From the NCBI GenBank assembly GCA_944385035.1, contig CALWVV010000004.1, forward strand, positions 62,001 through 126,000: a DNA stretch of 64,000 nucleotides, read 5' to 3'. The notes under the pieces were generated by a model. That model was given only the letters and a program-made list of their open reading frames with translations, made no database searches and was not told the DNA's origin. The DNA is from an uncultured Oscillospiraceae bacterium. GTDB taxonomy: Bacteria > Bacillota > Clostridia > Oscillospirales > Oscillospiraceae. Both the position numbers and the translations under genes were made by a program. Shown piece by piece: positions 5,251 to 11,751 of the stretch; position 1 is the stretch's first letter; each line of letters begins with the position of its first letter.

Positions 5251-5319
5251 ATGAACCACCTCCGCCCTATCCTATGGCCGCCCTCCCCTGGGTATGCGTG
5301 GGCAACAAAGGCCGGAGTG

Positions 5320-5386
5320 CATAGACTGGTTTGAGGGGGACGCCGCGCCCTCTCAGCGCGGCCCCCTCTCAATTCAAAGAAGGAGG
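5320..5386 (+). promoter_or_regulatory. cotJ leader: possible mother-cell -10, hairpin and ribosome site
   Basis: CATAGACT at 5320-5327 fits the CATANNNT form of SigE/SigK -10 boxes, but no well-spaced -35 is readable. A strong hairpin follows: GAGGGG (5333-5338) with CCCCTC (5363-5368), and GCCGCGC (5342-5348) with GCGCGGC (5356-5362). AAGGAGG at 5380-5386 sets the TTG start 9 bases later. The sporulation-sigma assignment is weak; the Shine-Dalgarno is clear. Confidence 0.4.
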
Positions 5387-5395
5387 CAACCCCCT

Positions 5396-5878
5396 TTGTA
5401 TAACGAAATTCCCAGCGCCCGGAGCACCCAGTCAGGTGCTGCCGCCGCCGGCTGTCCCGATTCCAGCGGCACTATGCCCTCTTGCGCGGGGCTGGCCGTC
5501 CCCTATGTCCCCTTTCAACAGAACAACCCCCAGAAATATTCCCAGTCTGAGGCACTGAGCAACGGCACCCTGTTTCCCGGCCTCAATTTGCCCTTTCACC
5601 TGAAGGTGGAGGGCTCCACAGTGCCCGACACTCCCCTCGCCGAGCTCCAGGCCCTGGAATTTGTGGTCATGGAGCTGGGTACCTATCTGGATACCCACCA
5701 GGATGACGCCGAGGCGTTTCGCCTGTTCAAGCAATACGCCGCCATGGAAAAGGCAGCCAAGGCGGCCTATGAGTCCAAGTTTGGTCCCATGACCAAGTCT
5801 GCCGCCGCCACCGGAGACAGCTACCAGTGGCTGAGCGAACCCTGGCCCTGGAATTACGAGCAGAACGAGGTGAAGTGA
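5396..5878 (+). CDS. cotJB: Fused spore coat proteins CotJA-CotJB
   Basis: A 160-residue protein joining two proteins normally encoded separately. Residues about 30-70 (YVPFQQ, SEALSNGTLFPGLNLPF) match CotJA. Residues about 78-160 (LQALEFVVMELGTYLDTH, EAFRLFKQY, WPWNYE) match CotJB. No stop or restart separates them. In Bacillus the cotJABC operon is transcribed in the mother cell under SigE and its products enter the inner coat. The start is TTG 5396 with AAGGAGG upstream. The stop TGA is one base before the ATG of cotJC, so translational coupling is likely. Confidence 0.85.
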   Translation: MYNEIPSARSTQSGAAAAGCPDSSGTMPSCAGLAVPYVPFQQNNPQKYSQSEALSNGTLFPGLNLPFHLKVEGSTVPDTPLAELQALEFVVMELGTYLDTHQDDAEAFRLFKQYAAMEKAAKAAYESKFGPMTKSAAATGDSYQWLSEPWPWNYEQNEVK

Positions 5879-5879
5879 G

Positions 5880-6044
5880 ATGTTTGTATATGAAAAGAAG
5901 CTCCAATTCCCGGTAAAGATCTCCACTCCCAACCCCAAACTGGCCGCCTTTATTATCAGTCAGTACGGCGGGCCGGACGGGGAGCTGGGCGCCTCCATGC
6001 GCTATCTGTCCCAGCGCTACGCCATGCCCTACGCCGAAGGATAA
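5880..6044 (+). CDS. cotJC: cotJC 5' part, interrupted by mobile element
   Basis: The first 53 codons of CotJC (starting MFVYEKKLQFPVKI, through QYGGPDGELGAS and YLSQRYAMPYAE) followed by one element-derived codon and TAA at 6042-6044. CotJC is a manganese-catalase-family coat protein. This piece holds the first metal ligand (E35), while the other ligands lie in the 3' part 5.2 kb away. Joining 5880-6037 to 11286-11751 gives 208 codons including stop (207 residues) with no frame change. As it stands the gene would make only a 54-residue stub. Confidence 0.9.
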   Translation: MFVYEKKLQFPVKISTPNPKLAAFIISQYGGPDGELGASMRYLSQRYAMPYAEG

Positions 6045-6059
6045 AGTACAAAGTTACAA
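6013..6059. other. attL, left junction of the cotJC element
   Basis: The chromosomal half-site up to GCC (6035) is followed by the crossover dinucleotide GA (6036-6037). The element arm follows: AGGATAAAGTA (6038-6048), then CAAAGTTACAA (6049-6059). The last 11 bases are the exact inverse of the right-end arm at 11262-11272, and both are 11 bases from the GA. Confidence 0.85.
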
Positions 6060-6065
6060 TAATGC

Positions 6066-7586
6066 TCAATAAAAAATGACGTTGATTTCATCGTCAGTTA
6101 CAGTTATTTGTTTGATAAAGACCTTCGCAATACTCTTTCGCTCGTCCATGCTCATGTCAGGCCATTCAGCAATCACCTTGTCAATGTCATATCCGCCAAA
6201 CTCCGGTGCTTTTGCTTGAACGGTCAATCGGTTCAATTCCTCCGATAGTGCGTTTCTTTCCGCTTTCACACGCTCCACAATTATGCCGATTTCATCAATT
6301 AGCGCTTTATTGGCAAAGCGAACTTGTTTCACATAATCGTCTATTTCCTTTTCTTTTTCACGAATAGCCGCTTTCAAAGCGTTAATTTGTGGCGAAAAGT
6401 TGTCTTTAGCCTTTGAAGTTTTGACCTTCAACTTCTTTAGATAGGATAACAACTGGCCCTCCACAATCTGCTCCAATGTGTCAGACGTGAGAGCCTTTTG
6501 CCTACCGTAGCAGTATTTTTCTATCCTGCCTATGCAAATCGTGTAAATCTTACTGCCTGGACGACCGCCATCCTTAAAGCATATTGCCTTGCCACAACAT
6601 CCACATCGGACAAGGCCAGATAGCCAAGACTTTGCCCCTGTTCCACTGGAACCAAAATTATGATTATTTAATAATTTGTCTTGTACTCGTAACCACAGTT
6701 CAGACGATATAATTCCCTTGTGTAACCCGATTGTAGCATATTCTTCACCATCGGCGGCATATTTCTCACGGGCAACCCCTTTTGTTTTGCCATAGAGAAA
6801 AATGCCGTTTTCACCTATGTAGTCCCCAGGCTGATTGTTTATCTTCACACCCTTGCTTTGTAGGAATGTATAGACATCCATATCGGCCTTTACATAGATA
6901 GGATTTCCTAAAATCCTTGTAATAGCGTGTTTCTGAAAGTAATTCCCCTTTACAGTTTTTATATCTTTCTCGTGTAGCCATTTTTGGACTTGTCCAAGTG
7001 ATACACCACCATTTCCATATAACTCATACATCTGTTTAACAATCTCTACTTGTTCAGGAAGTGGTTCAAGTTTCTTCGTTTTCTTCCCCATCAAGGTGGT
7101 TTCAACTTTGGTATAGCCAAACGGCGCTCGTGCACCAAGATAAAAACCCTGCTGGCCTCTGGCATAGTAGTTTTCTGTTACCCGCATTTGAATAGTTTCA
7201 CGTTCAAATTGCGCAAAAACCATTAAAATACCATAAATTGCTTCACTTAAAGCGGAGTTTCCCGTATTGACAATCGGTTCATTTTTACTTATGAACTTGA
7301 CATTGTGACTTTTGAATTTCGCCATCATTTGAGCAAAGTCCGCTACTGAACGGCTAATACGGTCAAGTTTCCAAACAATTACATTTTCCACTAAGCCGTT
7401 CTCAATGTCTGCCATCATGCGGTTAAACTCTGGGCGGTCGGTATTCTTGCCAGAAAAACCCCTATCGGCATAGACTTCATACCGACCACCCGTAGCAACC
7501 AAGCCTTTGCAATCCTCAATCTGGCTCTCAATACTGATGGAGTATTCCGATTTGTCAATCGACTGTCTGACGTAAATTGCGTCCAC
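6066..7586 (-). CDS. Large serine recombinase (element excisionase/integrase)
   Basis: A 506-residue large serine recombinase. The N-terminal resolvase domain (about 1-145) has the nucleophile Ser9 in YVRQS and the VWKLDRISR motif. A recombinase domain (about 150-270) follows, then a zinc ribbon (RCGCCGKAICF and CIGRIEKYCYG, about 325-365) and a coiled coil (about 390-450). The gene ends 28 bp from the attL crossover, the usual arrangement for the enzyme that moves its own element. GTG 7584-7586 follows the stop of the 83-residue gene directly, with AAGGAG 7 bases before. By family it should catalyse attP x attB integration, and excision with a directionality factor. Confidence 0.95.
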   Translation of the reverse strand: MDAIYVRQSIDKSEYSISIESQIEDCKGLVATGGRYEVYADRGFSGKNTDRPEFNRMMADIENGLVENVIVWKLDRISRSVADFAQMMAKFKSHNVKFISKNEPIVNTGNSALSEAIYGILMVFAQFERETIQMRVTENYYARGQQGFYLGARAPFGYTKVETTLMGKKTKKLEPLPEQVEIVKQMYELYGNGGVSLGQVQKWLHEKDIKTVKGNYFQKHAITRILGNPIYVKADMDVYTFLQSKGVKINNQPGDYIGENGIFLYGKTKGVAREKYAADGEEYATIGLHKGIISSELWLRVQDKLLNNHNFGSSGTGAKSWLSGLVRCGCCGKAICFKDGGRPGSKIYTICIGRIEKYCYGRQKALTSDTLEQIVEGQLLSYLKKLKVKTSKAKDNFSPQINALKAAIREKEKEIDDYVKQVRFANKALIDEIGIIVERVKAERNALSEELNRLTVQAKAPEFGGYDIDKVIAEWPDMSMDERKSIAKVFIKQITVTDDEINVIFY

Positions 7587-7838
7587 TTATTTTCTCCTTC
7601 CCCGTTCAGCCATTAAATGCCGGATTGCTCTATCGGCAAGTTCAGCATCACGTTTTTTTCGCTCCTCTGGTGCTATGTCATCGTCATCTACCTCAACAGT
7701 AACTTTGTATCCAGCCTGTATAAATTCATTAAGTATGCGACCCACCATATCGCCCCCCTGGGAAAACGATATGGTTCCGTTCAGTATCATATAACTATAT
7801 TCGGGGTTGTCCATCAAAAATTGCCGCAACTCATCCAA
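7587..7838 (-). CDS. 83-residue acidic/basic small protein, candidate directionality factor
   Basis: I do not recognise the family. The protein has an acidic stretch (VEVDDDDIAPEERKK) and a basic C-terminus (AERGRRK). It is translationally coupled to the serine recombinase (stop TAA 7587-7589 followed at once by its GTG). Large serine recombinases need a small accessory protein to switch to excision, and such genes often sit beside the recombinase. Position and size are the only support for that role here. Its Shine-Dalgarno is buried in a 14-bp hairpin (7845-7879). Confidence 0.75.
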   Translation of the reverse strand: MDELRQFLMDNPEYSYMILNGTISFSQGGDMVGRILNEFIQAGYKVTVEVDDDDIAPEERKKRDAELADRAIRHLMAERGRRK

Positions 7839-7844
7839 AATATC

Positions 7845-7879
7845 ACCACCTTTTATGGCATTTTACCATAAAAGGTGGT
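7845..7879 (-). promoter_or_regulatory. Hairpin masking the ribosome site of the recombinase operon
   Basis: Arms 7845-7858 and 7866-7879 are perfect 14-bp complements with a 7-base loop. On the minus-strand RNA the 3' arm ends AAAAGGTGGT, which with the next bases GAT is the Shine-Dalgarno 6 bases before ATG 7838. Folding would block initiation of the small gene and, by coupling, of the recombinase. Transposon mRNAs often use this device to silence read-through transcripts. Confidence 0.7.
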
Positions 7880-7918
7880 CTTTTACAACAATTTGTACAA
7901 TTTTCTCTATCCGAAAAG

Positions 7919-9328
7919 TCAGAACGGCAATTCATCATCACAATCCCCACAAGTTTCTGTTTTCACAATCTGTATTGTGCCAAAGTCCTTAAAATCTTCA
8001 AGGGCCTTTTGAAGTTCATCATCATTGAGAGGTGTATTTTCCAACTGATTAAGTACCTCGTCATACTTTGATTTTGGCAATTCCATAACCTTGCTTTCTA
8101 ATATTCTAATCAACCGTTCATTTCCCTGAAGTTTTTGTCTGATAGTCTTTAGATTGCCTCTGATGTGGTTATATTCTTCCCATTCAGTAAACTGCCCCGT
8201 ACCATAGAAGAAACCTTTATTGACAAGCAAATTGAAATCTTCTTCATGCAATGGGATGATGAAAGGAAATCGTCTGTAACTCTGGTTTTTGTCCTCTGCA
8301 ACAATTTGTTTTCCATCTCTATCGGTGTATTCACCTGCTAAACCGTCCAAAAATTCGGTATAACTCTGCACCGAATTTACAATATTCACCCGATTTACTA
8401 AATTTACCGAACCATATTTAATATTCTGTTTTCCCTTTGATGGATGTGTGTCAAAAACATTGAATACATTCCCACGACCGCCAAGTGTTTTTATCAGTTC
8501 ACCGGCACGGCAATCATTCCAAATAATAACAGGCTGTCCGTCATAGCCATCAAAGGATACGCCCTCTGCACCTATTTCAAAGAAAATGTCTCCATCATCT
8601 TCTATGTTCGGAAAAAGCGCCCTTGCTAATGCCCGGCTCGTCAAACCTTTACCAAATCCACCTCCACCAGAAATATAATAGTTAATTCGTGTTGATGGTG
8701 GCGGCAAGTTCTCTAAGTACTGTAATCTTAACTTTTTCAGCCGTTCAAAGTCATCCATATAGTTCAATAAATCAGAATTTCGGGCCTCTCTCAATGTCAT
8801 CCCATCAACCAGGACAGCCGCCCGGTAACGGTCTTTACTGCTTAATTCACGACCAAACTCTTTGACCTCCTTCTTCCGTCTGCTTATTTCCGCTCGGAAG
8901 TCAAAGTTTGCATATACTTCCATATCAGAATACAAATGTTTTCCAATCATTTGTTGACTTGTACTTTCGTGTGTCAAGTATTCGGCACAATCCCAAAAGG
9001 CACCCCAACCGGATGGCATATCAACAAAATTTGGTGCTATATTAAACCATTTTGCAATATTTTTCGCAGTTAGACTTGAGGATAGTTGCAAAACTATATG
9101 ATAATGCGGTGGCTTGAGTTCTCCCGATTTTCCTTTCCCGGCGACTTCATCCTCAGCGGTATATTCGTCTTTGTCATGTAAAATATAGGCCCATTTATAT
9201 ATTGTTTTGTGCTTCAATGCAAGTTTTATTGTAGTTTCATCAATAAGACGTTCACCTGTATCTTTGTGAAAAACATATTGCATGATATTAAAAACTTTTG
9301 CCTTTTTCTCTTTTGTGGCAGTCGGCAT
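7919..9328 (-). CDS. Replication initiator, HUH endonuclease plus SF3-type helicase
   Basis: A 469-residue Rep. The N-terminal nicking domain shows motif 1 (YILHDKDEY), the HUH motif (PPHYHIVLQL, about 93) and the tyrosine motif (CAEYLTHES, about 133). The C-terminal half has a P-loop region GGGGFGKGLTS (about 240) and a Walker B VIIWND. This two-domain order is shared by Rep proteins of CRESS-DNA viruses and related bacterial plasmids and integrated elements. The residue after the P-loop lysine is Gly rather than Ser/Thr, an odd feature. It should nick an origin for rolling-circle replication of the excised circle. ATG 9328 follows AAAGGGGGC. Confidence 0.85.
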   Translation of the reverse strand: MPTATKEKKAKVFNIMQYVFHKDTGERLIDETTIKLALKHKTIYKWAYILHDKDEYTAEDEVAGKGKSGELKPPHYHIVLQLSSSLTAKNIAKWFNIAPNFVDMPSGWGAFWDCAEYLTHESTSQQMIGKHLYSDMEVYANFDFRAEISRRKKEVKEFGRELSSKDRYRAAVLVDGMTLREARNSDLLNYMDDFERLKKLRLQYLENLPPPSTRINYYISGGGGFGKGLTSRALARALFPNIEDDGDIFFEIGAEGVSFDGYDGQPVIIWNDCRAGELIKTLGGRGNVFNVFDTHPSKGKQNIKYGSVNLVNRVNIVNSVQSYTEFLDGLAGEYTDRDGKQIVAEDKNQSYRRFPFIIPLHEEDFNLLVNKGFFYGTGQFTEWEEYNHIRGNLKTIRQKLQGNERLIRILESKVMELPKSKYDEVLNQLENTPLNDDELQKALEDFKDFGTIQIVKTETCGDCDDELPF

Positions 9329-9372
9329 AATTAACGCCCCCTTTCTATTTTGATATTGAATATTAGTTAAAT

Positions 9373-9553
9373 TTACCCCAACTTATAATGAAAAACATTC
9401 TAACTCGGGGTAGAAATTACCCCAACATACCCCAAGTTAAAACGCGACCACACAAGCCCTTTGTGGTCGCGTTCGTTGCAAAATATATATAAATATGTGT
9501 AAAAATAATATAAAAATTGCAAAAAAGTTTGAACATCCCCCGATTGCCCCAAA
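9373..9553. other. Putative rolling-circle origin: ACCCCAA iterons and a 12-bp hairpin
   Basis: Repeats TTACCCCAAC (9417-9426), ATACCCCAAG (9427-9436) and TTACCCCAAC (9373-9382), an inverted GGGGTA (9407-9412) and a looser TTGCCCCAAA (9544-9553) cluster just upstream of rep. A perfect hairpin (9441-9452 with 9462-9473, loop CAAGCCCTT) lies among them. Neither side has a terminator T-run. Iterons plus a hairpin next to a HUH Rep gene are typical of a double-strand origin. The nick site cannot be read by eye. Confidence 0.6.
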
Positions 9554-9570
9554 TTTCTTGAAAAAGTTTT

Positions 9571-10551
9571 TTACATCTTATAGCCGTATGAAGTGAAAAC
9601 TACTTCAAGTCTATTGTGACCCAGAGCCCCCGACACCATACCGCATATATCTCTATCATGGCCTCTGTATTGCGGATTGTCACTTATATCACGGCCTCGA
9701 AGATTACAAAGCCTCTCAACCTCATAATCCCCCTCACAAAGGGGCAACCCATGTTCTCTCTCATGCTCCAACTGTCTAAAAAGATTGGCTGCATATTCTG
9801 CACGAAAGGCATGGTTGTCTATCATATGACTGTATTCTTGAGTAAAAAGTCGCTCATTTTCCAATTTCCCATTATCATCATTATGCCTTTCGGCTACTCC
9901 CCGGGCAATTTCTGTAACCCTATCCTTGTATTCATTAAGTACAGGGGCCGTTCTTTCCTTACCACCCTTCTCAACCAAATGAACGGCCACTACACGTCCA
10001 TTATGCCAAACTAAGTCCCGATACTGAACTTGCTCAATAGACTGTCTACGGCAACCACAGGCTTTTGCAAAGTCAATTTCATCCTTATAGCGTTCTGTAT
10101 GAGCATATCTGTCATGCTGGCACTCGTTTCGACTTCGAATAACATCTTCCTGACGCCTATCATGCAAACCAAGTTCCTTTTTACTCAAATCATAACCAAA
10201 AACTTTGTTTATAGCCGACATATCACGAGTGACCGTCCATGCTGATTTACCTTCGGCTTCTCTTTCCCTTAAATACTGGGCGGCGTGCTCTCTGGTTATC
10301 TTCGAGGCATTGTTTAGCCCTTGATTAGCTGCCCATTTTGAAAAATCAGTCATGGCCGACCGATAAGTTTCCATTGTCTTGATACCATATATTCCATCTA
10401 CCTTTGACGGGTTCCATCCTGTTAAAGTCCCATGTTCTTTGAGATAGGCTGCTCTGGCTTCTTGTTTAGCCTCATGCTTCGACTGACCAAAACGGGCCAT
10501 ACCTGACAACCGATGTTGTAGACTTTTATCAATTCGCTTCCAGTTTGCCAT
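9571..10551 (-). CDS. Tyrosine recombinase/integrase-fold protein of the element
   Basis: About 326 residues. A SAM-like N-terminal region precedes a catalytic domain with Arg in CGCRRQSI, Lys in EKGGKERTAP, H-x-x-R in HAFRAEY, the GH pair in LGHNRLEV and a terminal Tyr in FTSYGY. All catalytic positions appear kept. Because the serine enzyme already accounts for integration (the junctions are GA-centred), this one more likely resolves multimers of the replicating circle. ATG 10551 has GGAGGTG 6 bases upstream; the GTG at 10569 overlaps that site and is less likely. Confidence 0.8.
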   Translation of the reverse strand: MANWKRIDKSLQHRLSGMARFGQSKHEAKQEARAAYLKEHGTLTGWNPSKVDGIYGIKTMETYRSAMTDFSKWAANQGLNNASKITREHAAQYLREREAEGKSAWTVTRDMSAINKVFGYDLSKKELGLHDRRQEDVIRSRNECQHDRYAHTERYKDEIDFAKACGCRRQSIEQVQYRDLVWHNGRVVAVHLVEKGGKERTAPVLNEYKDRVTEIARGVAERHNDDNGKLENERLFTQEYSHMIDNHAFRAEYAANLFRQLEHEREHGLPLCEGDYEVERLCNLRGRDISDNPQYRGHDRDICGMVSGALGHNRLEVVFTSYGYKM

Positions 10552-10569
10552 ATATAACACCTCCACCAC

Positions 10570-10587
10570 TATATAGTTTATATAGTT
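10570..10587 (-). promoter_or_regulatory. 9-bp tandem repeat in the tyrosine recombinase promoter region
   Basis: TATATAGTT occurs twice head to tail (10570-10578, 10579-10587) just ahead of the gene's ribosome site. It could be an operator or simply AT-rich promoter DNA. Confidence 0.35.
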
Positions 10588-11186
10588 TTATATAATTATG
10601 AAATGCACCCCGTAATGGAGCGCATTTCACAATTCTTTTATATTTATTATGTTTTATTGTAAAATGGCTCAAAAAACCATAATTATATATAAATATATAA
10701 CATCTAAATTACCATATCCCTTGAAATAATTCTTGATAATTCGTAATAAATTATAAAACTGCACGACATTTAGAAGTAAACGTTCCGTTTACTTCTAAAA
10801 ACTACTACAAAAAAACAATTTAGAACCATATTCTTTTTATGTTTAGACTGACGCATTTTTTTACAATCTTACGTTTGATTGCCAGCAATTCAACTGGAAG
10901 TGGCTTCGCTGTCTTGCACCCAAAGTTCGAGTTCGACCCCGGCGTGCTAAGACGCTTTGCCATGCGGCTCTGACCTTGACCACCTTGACACACTTCGCCG
11001 CAGTCAGTAAAGAGTTAAAACTTTACCCGCCATCGCTATTCGACGATACAGCCGATGGGCTTCTAATTCTTGCCAAATTTATTCATACCAATAAATTCTC
11101 CTACCATCCAAAAATTTATTTATAGTTAATACTATACGGTTGTTTTCGTTCTTATAACCGTATTTTCTACATAATTTTTTGAGAAT
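10588..11186. other. Non-coding cis region of the element
   Basis: About 600 bp without a convincing gene. It holds a hairpin with TGAAATGC arms (10599-10606/10622-10629), a perfect 14-bp hairpin (10769-10799), and a GC-richer patch (about 10890-11060) with two direct ACCTTGAC repeats near 10973-10992. A single-strand origin, a multimer-resolution site or an origin of transfer are possible. I cannot choose among them from sequence alone. Confidence 0.5.
10769..10799. repeat. Perfect 14-bp inverted repeat with 3-base loop
   Basis: TTTAGAAGTAAACG (10769-10782), loop TTC, then the exact complement (10786-10799). It lies upstream of the tyrosine recombinase gene. It may be a single-strand origin, the target of that recombinase, or a terminator, although the T-runs are weak. 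Confidence 0.65.
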
Positions 11187-11252
11187 CGCATTTCTGCGGA
11201 AATGCGCTGGTAAAGGAAAAGAGAGAGTATGCACTCTCTCTTTTCCTTTACC
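11187..11252. terminator. Two stacked hairpins at the right end, the second with a 20-bp perfect stem
   Basis: CGCATTTC (11187-11194) pairs with GAAATGCG (11199-11206) around loop TGCG. Directly after, 11209-11228 pairs perfectly with 11233-11252 around loop ATGC. CTTATTTTG follows. The position, 31 bp inside the attR crossover, suggests a transcription barrier between element and cotJC, or a replication structure. Confidence 0.6.
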
Positions 11253-11261
11253 CTTATTTTG

Positions 11262-11306
11262 TTGTAACTTTGAACTCTATCGTGAGGCCAAGGGCCTGCT
11301 CACCGA
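11262..11306. other. attR, right junction of the cotJC element
   Basis: Element arm TTGTAACTTTG (11262-11272) and AACTCTATCGT (11273-11283), crossover GA (11284-11285), then the chromosomal half-site GGCCAAGGGCCTGCT (11286-11300). Combined with the left end it gives an attP of 11+11+GA+11+11 bases whose inner arms match at 8 of 11 positions and outer arms at 11 of 11. Confidence 0.85.
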
Positions 11307-11751
11307 CATCGGCACCGAGGAGCTGGGCCACATGGAGATGGTGGCGGCCATCGTCCACCAGCTCACCCGGAACCTCACCGCCGACCAGATCAAAGGCACT
11401 CCCTTCGCCGCCTACTTCGTGGACCACACCACCGGGATCTATCCCACCGCCGCCTCCGGCTTCCCCTGGAGCGCCGACGGCATGCAGTCCACCGGGGACG
11501 TGATCGCCGACCTTACGGAAGATATGGCCGCCGAACAAAAGGCGAGAGTCACCTACGACAACATCCTGCGCCTGAGCGACGACCCGGACGTGAACAACGC
11601 CATCCGCTTCCTCCGGGAACGGGAGATCGTCCACTTCCAGCGCTTCGGCGAATGCCTGCGGCTGTGCAAGGAGAAGATGGACAGCCGGAACATTTACCTC
11701 ACCAACCCCGCCTTCGACAAACCTCAGCCCAGAACCTCTGTCCAGGCATAA
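11284..11751 (+). CDS. cotJC: cotJC 3' part (manganese-catalase-family coat protein)
   Basis: Codons 53-207 of CotJC, beginning at the shared GA and reading EAKGLLTDIGTEELGHMEMV. The remaining metal-ligand motifs are intact: TEELGH, AAEQKARVTYD and REREIVHFQRF, all at normal spacing. There is no stop, frameshift or decay. The piece lacks its own start and ribosome site. A frame extends into the element to a TTG at 11179 but passes through the 20-bp hairpin with no Shine-Dalgarno. Excision of the element would rebuild a normal-length gene. Confidence 0.9.
   Translation, partial: EAKGLLTDIGTEELGHMEMVAAIVHQLTRNLTADQIKGTPFAAYFVDHTTGIYPTAASGFPWSADGMQSTGDVIADLTEDMAAEQKARVTYDNILRLSDDPDVNNAIRFLREREIVHFQRFGECLRLCKEKMDSRNIYLTNPAFDKPQPRTSVQA

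Follow-up and report, generated by a model that had tools for sequence, protein, structure and literature searches.

A compact, very probably skin-like element divides the spore-coat gene cotJC of an uncultured Oscillospiraceae bacterium

Intervening elements that interrupt sporulation genes are on record for sigK, spsM, spoVFB, spoVR, gerE and yabG (PMC5025042, PMC4191935, PMC5595907, PMC10747680). As described in the available portions of these papers, to which our later statements on published systems also refer, few sporulation genes are rebuilt in this way, with one element each. No description of a split cotJC was found in the open-licence literature, and the word "catalase" is absent from the main text, as available, of a survey of serine recombinases (PMC10083194). 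Here we analyze a 64,000-nucleotide stretch of the genome of an uncultured Oscillospiraceae bacterium (assembly GCA_944385035.1, contig CALWVV010000004.1, positions 62,001 to 126,000; the whole stretch is called the window below), in which cotJC is divided by an element of 5,248 bp (6038–11285, counting one GA copy) that encodes its own large serine recombinase.

The gene is broken within codon 53. Its 5' part (5880–6037, plus strand) consists of 52 codons plus GA, while its 3' part (11286–11751, plus strand) finishes the codon and runs to the stop, and each half independently matches PF05067 (Mn_catalase), over profile positions 1–50 and 55–198, respectively. When the flanks are joined (6037/11286), they form one frame of 207 codons, the product of which is 93.4% identical over 198 aligned residues to that of an intact relative in the genus (L018), and 82–93% identical to the intact genus copies listed. 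Among joins with a common dinucleotide, scored with a profile of intact relatives, the GA join ranks first (422.6 bits, against 420.7 for the runner-up), and predicted excision at this GA core would restore the frame. The first-pass annotation of this DNA had proposed a split at GA with an in-frame join of 207 codons, which the joined frame and the best profile score confirm; its further statement that the metal-ligand motifs are intact holds for EELGHMEM and REIVHFQ, which are unchanged across five intact relatives aligned with the joined product. That the interrupted coding sequence belongs to a sporulation gene is indicated by the Mn_catalase domain and by the adjoining host open reading frame (ORF) directly upstream (5294–5878, plus strand), a single ORF in which the CotJA and CotJB domains are fused (PF11007 and PF12652). 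A search of the host genome (2.52 Mb in 53 contigs, 89.5% complete) for PF05067 gave the two cotJC parts as its only matches, and no second copy was found.

The putative crossover dinucleotide GA occurs at the left end (attL, 6036–6037) and at the right end (attR, 11284–11285) of the element, as located by the join scan and by the symmetry of the predicted circular junction, attP. The 24-nt arms of attP around GA agree at 20 of 24 positions, a level that none of 5,000 shuffles equals and that compares with 12 for the best other centre. Such a near-palindromic attP is expected of a large serine recombinase encoded by the element, and the gene at 6066–7586 (minus strand) encodes one of 506 aa, with resolvase, recombinase and zinc-ribbon domains (PF00239, PF07508, PF13408) and a match to the integrase family phrog_95. 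The predicted attB is weakly symmetric (10/20, with 106 of 5,000 shuffles as good). The in-frame join, the recombinase domains and the GA-centred attP together support the earlier proposal of exact restoration by a serine recombinase.

We consider it probable, at roughly 0.8, that excision during sporulation rebuilds cotJC and that the element is skin-like and was integrated by its own recombinase; judged on its sequence, the window element very probably functions in the manner of skin. Integration into cotJC would have occurred by recombination of attB with attP at the GA core. When the cell sporulates, the recombinase would then recombine attL and attR in the mother cell, probably aided by an 83-aa protein acting as a directionality factor, and the element would leave as a circle, so that a single undivided cotJC would serve the spore coat, while the forespore would keep the element. 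We infer excision, its mother-cell timing, the role of the 83-aa protein and the replication of the circle. The 83-aa ORF (7587–7838, minus strand) ends at the recombinase start; its position and homologues make it a candidate directionality factor, and it has no family match in Pfam, PHROGs or NCBIfam scans. A perfect 14-bp inverted repeat (7845–7879) lies just upstream of this ORF, overlapping its likely ribosome-binding site.

With at most three candidates scored per genome, one close relative of the recombinase was found elsewhere among 400 genomes of the family (63% identity; genome G391, locus L072), and none in the other 63 genomes of the genus. The L072 element, in a different genus, occupies the same cotJC codon as the window element, and cotJC is open there. 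The profile scan ranks a TAT join first at this locus, 0.8 bit ahead of the next, and arm symmetry at GA reaches 15/24 (1 of 5,000 shuffles as good); we take its core as GA on the basis of arm symmetry, not of the top profile score. The two elements have the recombinase, the small ORF (64% identity over 80 residues) and a replication protein, Rep (27%), in common, and the remainder differs. An ORF of the L072 element was read as Mob/Pre-like, by eye only.

Evidence that the divided gene is still in use comes from relatives in which an element has been inherited. In three species pairs (L073/L074, L060/L061, L066/L067), the inherited element is common to both members over 96–100% of its length, and the cotJC 3' halves differ by 79 synonymous versus 3 nonsynonymous changes. 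Across six pairs (element coverage 38–100%), the 3' halves show 233.2 synonymous changes over 504 sites and 59.8 nonsynonymous changes over 1,695 sites, and omega is 0.00–0.10 in both cotJC halves. The 3' half is separated from the cotJ operon and from its own start, yet it is constrained, which argues that the gene is rebuilt; comparison of these sequences thus strongly supports a split cotJC that remains functional, or is rebuilt, in relatives. The first-pass annotation had named decayed halves around the same element as one sign that the idea is wrong; the gene is open at the same codon in L072 and constrained in the inherited pairs. The recombinases of L048, L049 and L078 are far closer to one another than the host genes are, so that elements must also move between hosts.

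Comparison with related genomes shows that the split is not an isolated case. A PF05067 match is present in 55 of the 64 genomes of the genus; judged by match ends, the gene is broken in 37 of the 55, at one of five positions that recur, whereas 17 contain it in whole form only and one is doubtful. On the profile, the positions are A (near 32), B (near 50–55), C (near 61–66), D (near 147–151) and E (near 190). For 24 genomes, at least one break is listed with its two sides; one-sided breaks can be contig ends, as in G425, and some labels may reflect paralogues. A RecA control in the same 64 genomes is full-length in 53 of the 58 above cut-off and present as fragments only in 5; in each of these five, one fragment or more touches a contig end, and some genomes also hold divergent or decayed extra RecA copies. 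In the family, both sides of a break were found in at least 63 of 80 genomes re-searched out of 400; these 80 come from 108 listed weak-match genomes, after omission of 25 single-match genomes and of G142, G161 and G382, and genomes with a strong whole match were likewise omitted. In other families of the class, 25 of 34 re-searched genomes, from 17 families, have both sides of a break, the 34 having been chosen by eye from 196 with a match; in at least four of the 34 (G510, G665, G681, G725), which are excluded from the 25, the pieces adjoin without an insert.

Some copies are broken more than once. Five genomes have cotJC in three pieces on a single contig: G572 and G606 with breaks A and C and a recombinase hit in both gaps, and G376, G053 and G307 with breaks C and E. 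By search positions, G592 has four pieces, spread over three contigs. Tails of cotJC past position E are present in three of six stretches (L115–L117) and were not found in the other three (L114, L118, L119).

We assembled 35 loci in which the two halves share a contig and lie within about 19 kb, which with the window make 36; longer or two-contig loci were not joined. A script demanding a common dinucleotide and an open frame found a best join in all 36, with rejoined frames of 180–214 residues, some of the joins of about 180–195 residues being explained by an additional E break (shown for L060, L065 and L069). All 36 elements have a recombinase hit, and the symmetry of attP at the inferred core is equalled by at most 5 of 500 shuffles in 27, the clearest failure being L077 (325/500). 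The recombinases fall into five deep clades by insertion position: one at A (2 members), one at B (2), two at C (20 and 2) and one at D (10). The position label changes 3 times on the recombinase tree, the minimum possible, compared with a mean of 12.5 in shuffles, although long branches make the order of clades unsure and near-copies also inflate the clustering. The other lineages are 22–29% identical to the window recombinase in BLAST alignments of at least 200 residues. Because deeply separate recombinase lineages are all found in cotJC, we read the presence of several lineages there as convergence. Just upstream of the recombinase and on the same strand, 12 of 22 C elements have a small conserved ORF, with medians of 67 aa in length and 75 bp in distance, as do 4 of 10 D elements, with medians of 51 aa and 68 bp; the directionality factors of skin and gin suggest, by analogy, that these ORFs are candidates for the same role. 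As for cargo, the site-C elements of L058, L059 and L071 (3.0–3.3 kb) also have an ORF read by eye as pyrimidine-nucleoside phosphorylase, and by eye only, the L060 element has a zinc alcohol dehydrogenase-like ORF and the L066 element a MATE-type transporter-like ORF.

The window recombinase also has more distant relatives. The next nearest (G006, 40.6% identity; L121, near 8559–9014) has beside it a related small ORF with a weaker match to the 83-aa ORF. This recombinase abuts an ORF read by eye as asparagine-synthetase-like, and since the two recombinases are about 40% identical, target genes may change within the lineage. Recombinases related to that of the window occupy 23 distinct places, 9 of them directly beside a piece of cotJC at position E. 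The genome_contigs collection has five distant recombinase loci (25–35% identity) and the viral contigs two relatives (26–27%); among the matches listed, the best in plasmids is 34% identical over the whole protein and the best in phages 30%.

A number of observations weigh against regulated rebuilding of cotJC. On the branch leading to the window, we count 6.5 synonymous changes in the 3' half against 8.5 nonsynonymous ones, values that neither show nor exclude constraint. The recombinase is split in L058, lacks its C-terminal part in L069 and is doubtful in L079, and the cotJC pieces are open in L058 and L069. On contig C1 of G143, three cotJC pieces lie on one contig with the last on the opposite strand, so that simple excision would not restore the gene. 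The join loci were picked for recognizable halves, with frame and dinucleotide imposed, and decayed cases would therefore be missed. One exact-pattern scan found the exact attP in no viral contig, and no excised junction was observed. In a scan for sigma-E and sigma-K promoter motifs upstream of the recombinases, a sigma-E-like motif scores a mean z of 0.69 (standard error 0.18), and the cotJ control does no better, with 0.20 (standard error 0.23). On the other side, the title of a reference in PMC5025042 describes cotJ as a sigma-E-controlled operon in B. subtilis. Of the claim that a serine recombinase excises the element in the mother cell, the recombinase and the exact restoration have stood up at the level of sequence, but its sporulation-specific part gained no support from promoter scores barely above shuffles or from the viral contigs, which yielded no excised form.

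Ordinary low-rate excision, in any cell or after stress, would restore cotJC independently of sporulation and in a minority of the cells. The recombinase and attP are typical of an ordinary integrative element, the motif scan shows no clear mother-cell promoter, and the C. difficile skin recombinase is itself constitutive (PMC5025042). However, control comes from a mother-cell directionality factor in C. difficile skin (PMC5025042) and in SP-beta (PMC5595907), and the very strong constraint that the split gene shows in the inherited pairs suggests its regular use, which leads us to regard uncontrolled excision as unlikely. The same constraint, on both halves, together with the open gene at the same codon in L072, makes it more improbable still that cotJC is dispensable and simply inactivated by a recent, neutral insertion bound to decay, even though the window branch lacks a clear selection signal and B. 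subtilis without CotJC has no apparent spore defect (PMC12122855).

Two further explanations appear to us to have very little chance of being right. An assembly or binning artefact might be suspected in a 53-contig draft at 89.5% completeness, but split genes also occur in the one-contig genomes G098, G370, G572 and G619, and RecA is full-length in most of the control, while each genome with fragments alone has one or more of them at a contig end. It could also be imagined that the halves are translated apart and assemble as a split protein, as both are open and constrained in relatives and as a TTG at 11179, within the window element, opens a mechanical frame into the 3' part (ORF 11179–11751). 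This is hardly credible given that the recombinase, the GA-centred attP and the precise join make DNA excision simpler, and that break positions vary among relatives. Excision during sporulation remains the reading that we prefer.

A second gene of the host may be affected in a similar way. Sigma factors akin to the sporulation sigma factor K are encoded by the host, a point in favour of the preferred reading; they are named here by nearest model, as the sigma-K model cut-off is unmet in all 64 genomes and in the B. subtilis control. One sigma-K-like gene (contig C24, 17066–17701) ends in SRSYVS plus three other residues, and an RIEK-tail pattern has a single match in the genome, on contig C4 near 174246, beside a serine-recombinase ORF (the two places are L113 and L133). 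The same break, recombinase and tail lie on one contig in G400 and in G404 (L122, L123), and in G342 (L120) the sigma-K-like gene is broken at another place. The host gene appears to be interrupted close to its 3' end. A broader picture, which we hold tentatively and at somewhat less than even odds, is that cotJC is a landing gene common to several unrelated recombinase lineages across this class of spore formers, and that certain species put it together in each mother cell, along with sigK, through two or three separate excisions, a multi-step DNA splicing that selection retains as a level of developmental control.

We describe the window element as compact, integrative and plasmid-like. Its measured length bears out the 5.2 kb first ascribed to it; its GC content is 0.40, whereas the flanks have 0.58 and 0.62, and its terminal inverted repeat (I1) extends over 40 nt at 78%. 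The four recognized genes are all on the minus strand. Besides the recombinase and the 83-aa protein, they encode a plasmid-type Rep protein of 469 aa (7919–9328; PF01719 Rep_OBD, weak PF00910), a plasmid-like trait, which is 47% identical over 88% coverage to the Rep of a Leptotrichia wadei plasmid, and a tyrosine-recombinase-like protein of 332 aa (9571–10569; PF02899), whose weak XerC/XerD matches lie chiefly in the N-terminal domain and whose catalytic motif was seen by eye only. The element had also been called replicating: the Rep_OBD match is present, and that gene alone suggests replication of the circle. A perfect 20-bp inverted repeat (I4) near the right end (11209–11252) may be a terminator or a replication structure. 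In PHROGs, two of the four proteins have matches, solely to integration/excision and DNA-invertase families, and the other two have none. We rejected a phage origin, as no phage structural families occur among the four proteins; nor was a relaxase family found among them in general scans of Pfam, PHROGs and NCBIfam.

In comparison with the published cases, what stands out here is one coat gene entered at five positions by deeply separate recombinase lineages, in a split state that seems to be inherited long-term under selection. Whether the elements are parasites at a harmless site or a control layer kept by their hosts is testable, and the elements offer many new recombinase/att pairs whose directionality is naturally controlled. 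For genome annotation, cotJC may appear absent or broken in spore formers.

Of the NCBIfam models, XisF, from the fdxN element in heterocyst-forming cyanobacteria, fits the window recombinase best (E 7.7e-38), although at 130.6 bits against a cut-off of 375 the latter is not a member by that model. Phage phi027 of C. difficile integrates next to a cotJC homologue (PMC11222575, PMC12122855), which is described as adjacent, downstream of attR, and not as being split and restored. SP-beta in spsM, vfbin in spoVFB and vrin in spoVR resemble the window element in their mother-cell-expressed targets, but are prophages or prophage remnants, and multiple insertion positions in one gene are not described for them in the available text (PMC4191935). 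In Clostridium botulinum, excision of yin restores the sporulation protease gene yabG, and its recombinase has the same three Pfam domains; yin differs in being prophage-like and was reported as unique (PMC10747680). In the case of skin, which occupies sigK in both Bacillus subtilis and Clostridioides difficile, a sporulation gene is likewise rebuilt by a serine recombinase, but skin is prophage-like, lies in another gene and has a proven directionality factor, CD1234, where the 83-aa ORF is a candidate (PMC5025042). The gin element of Bacillus cereus ATCC10987 (PMC5595907) differs in its size of 28.6 kb, its three serine recombinases, its target gerE and its experimentally proven excision; like the window element, it is non-phage, lies in a mother-cell gene and combines a serine recombinase with a symmetric att site and a separate directionality factor, for which the window element has a candidate.

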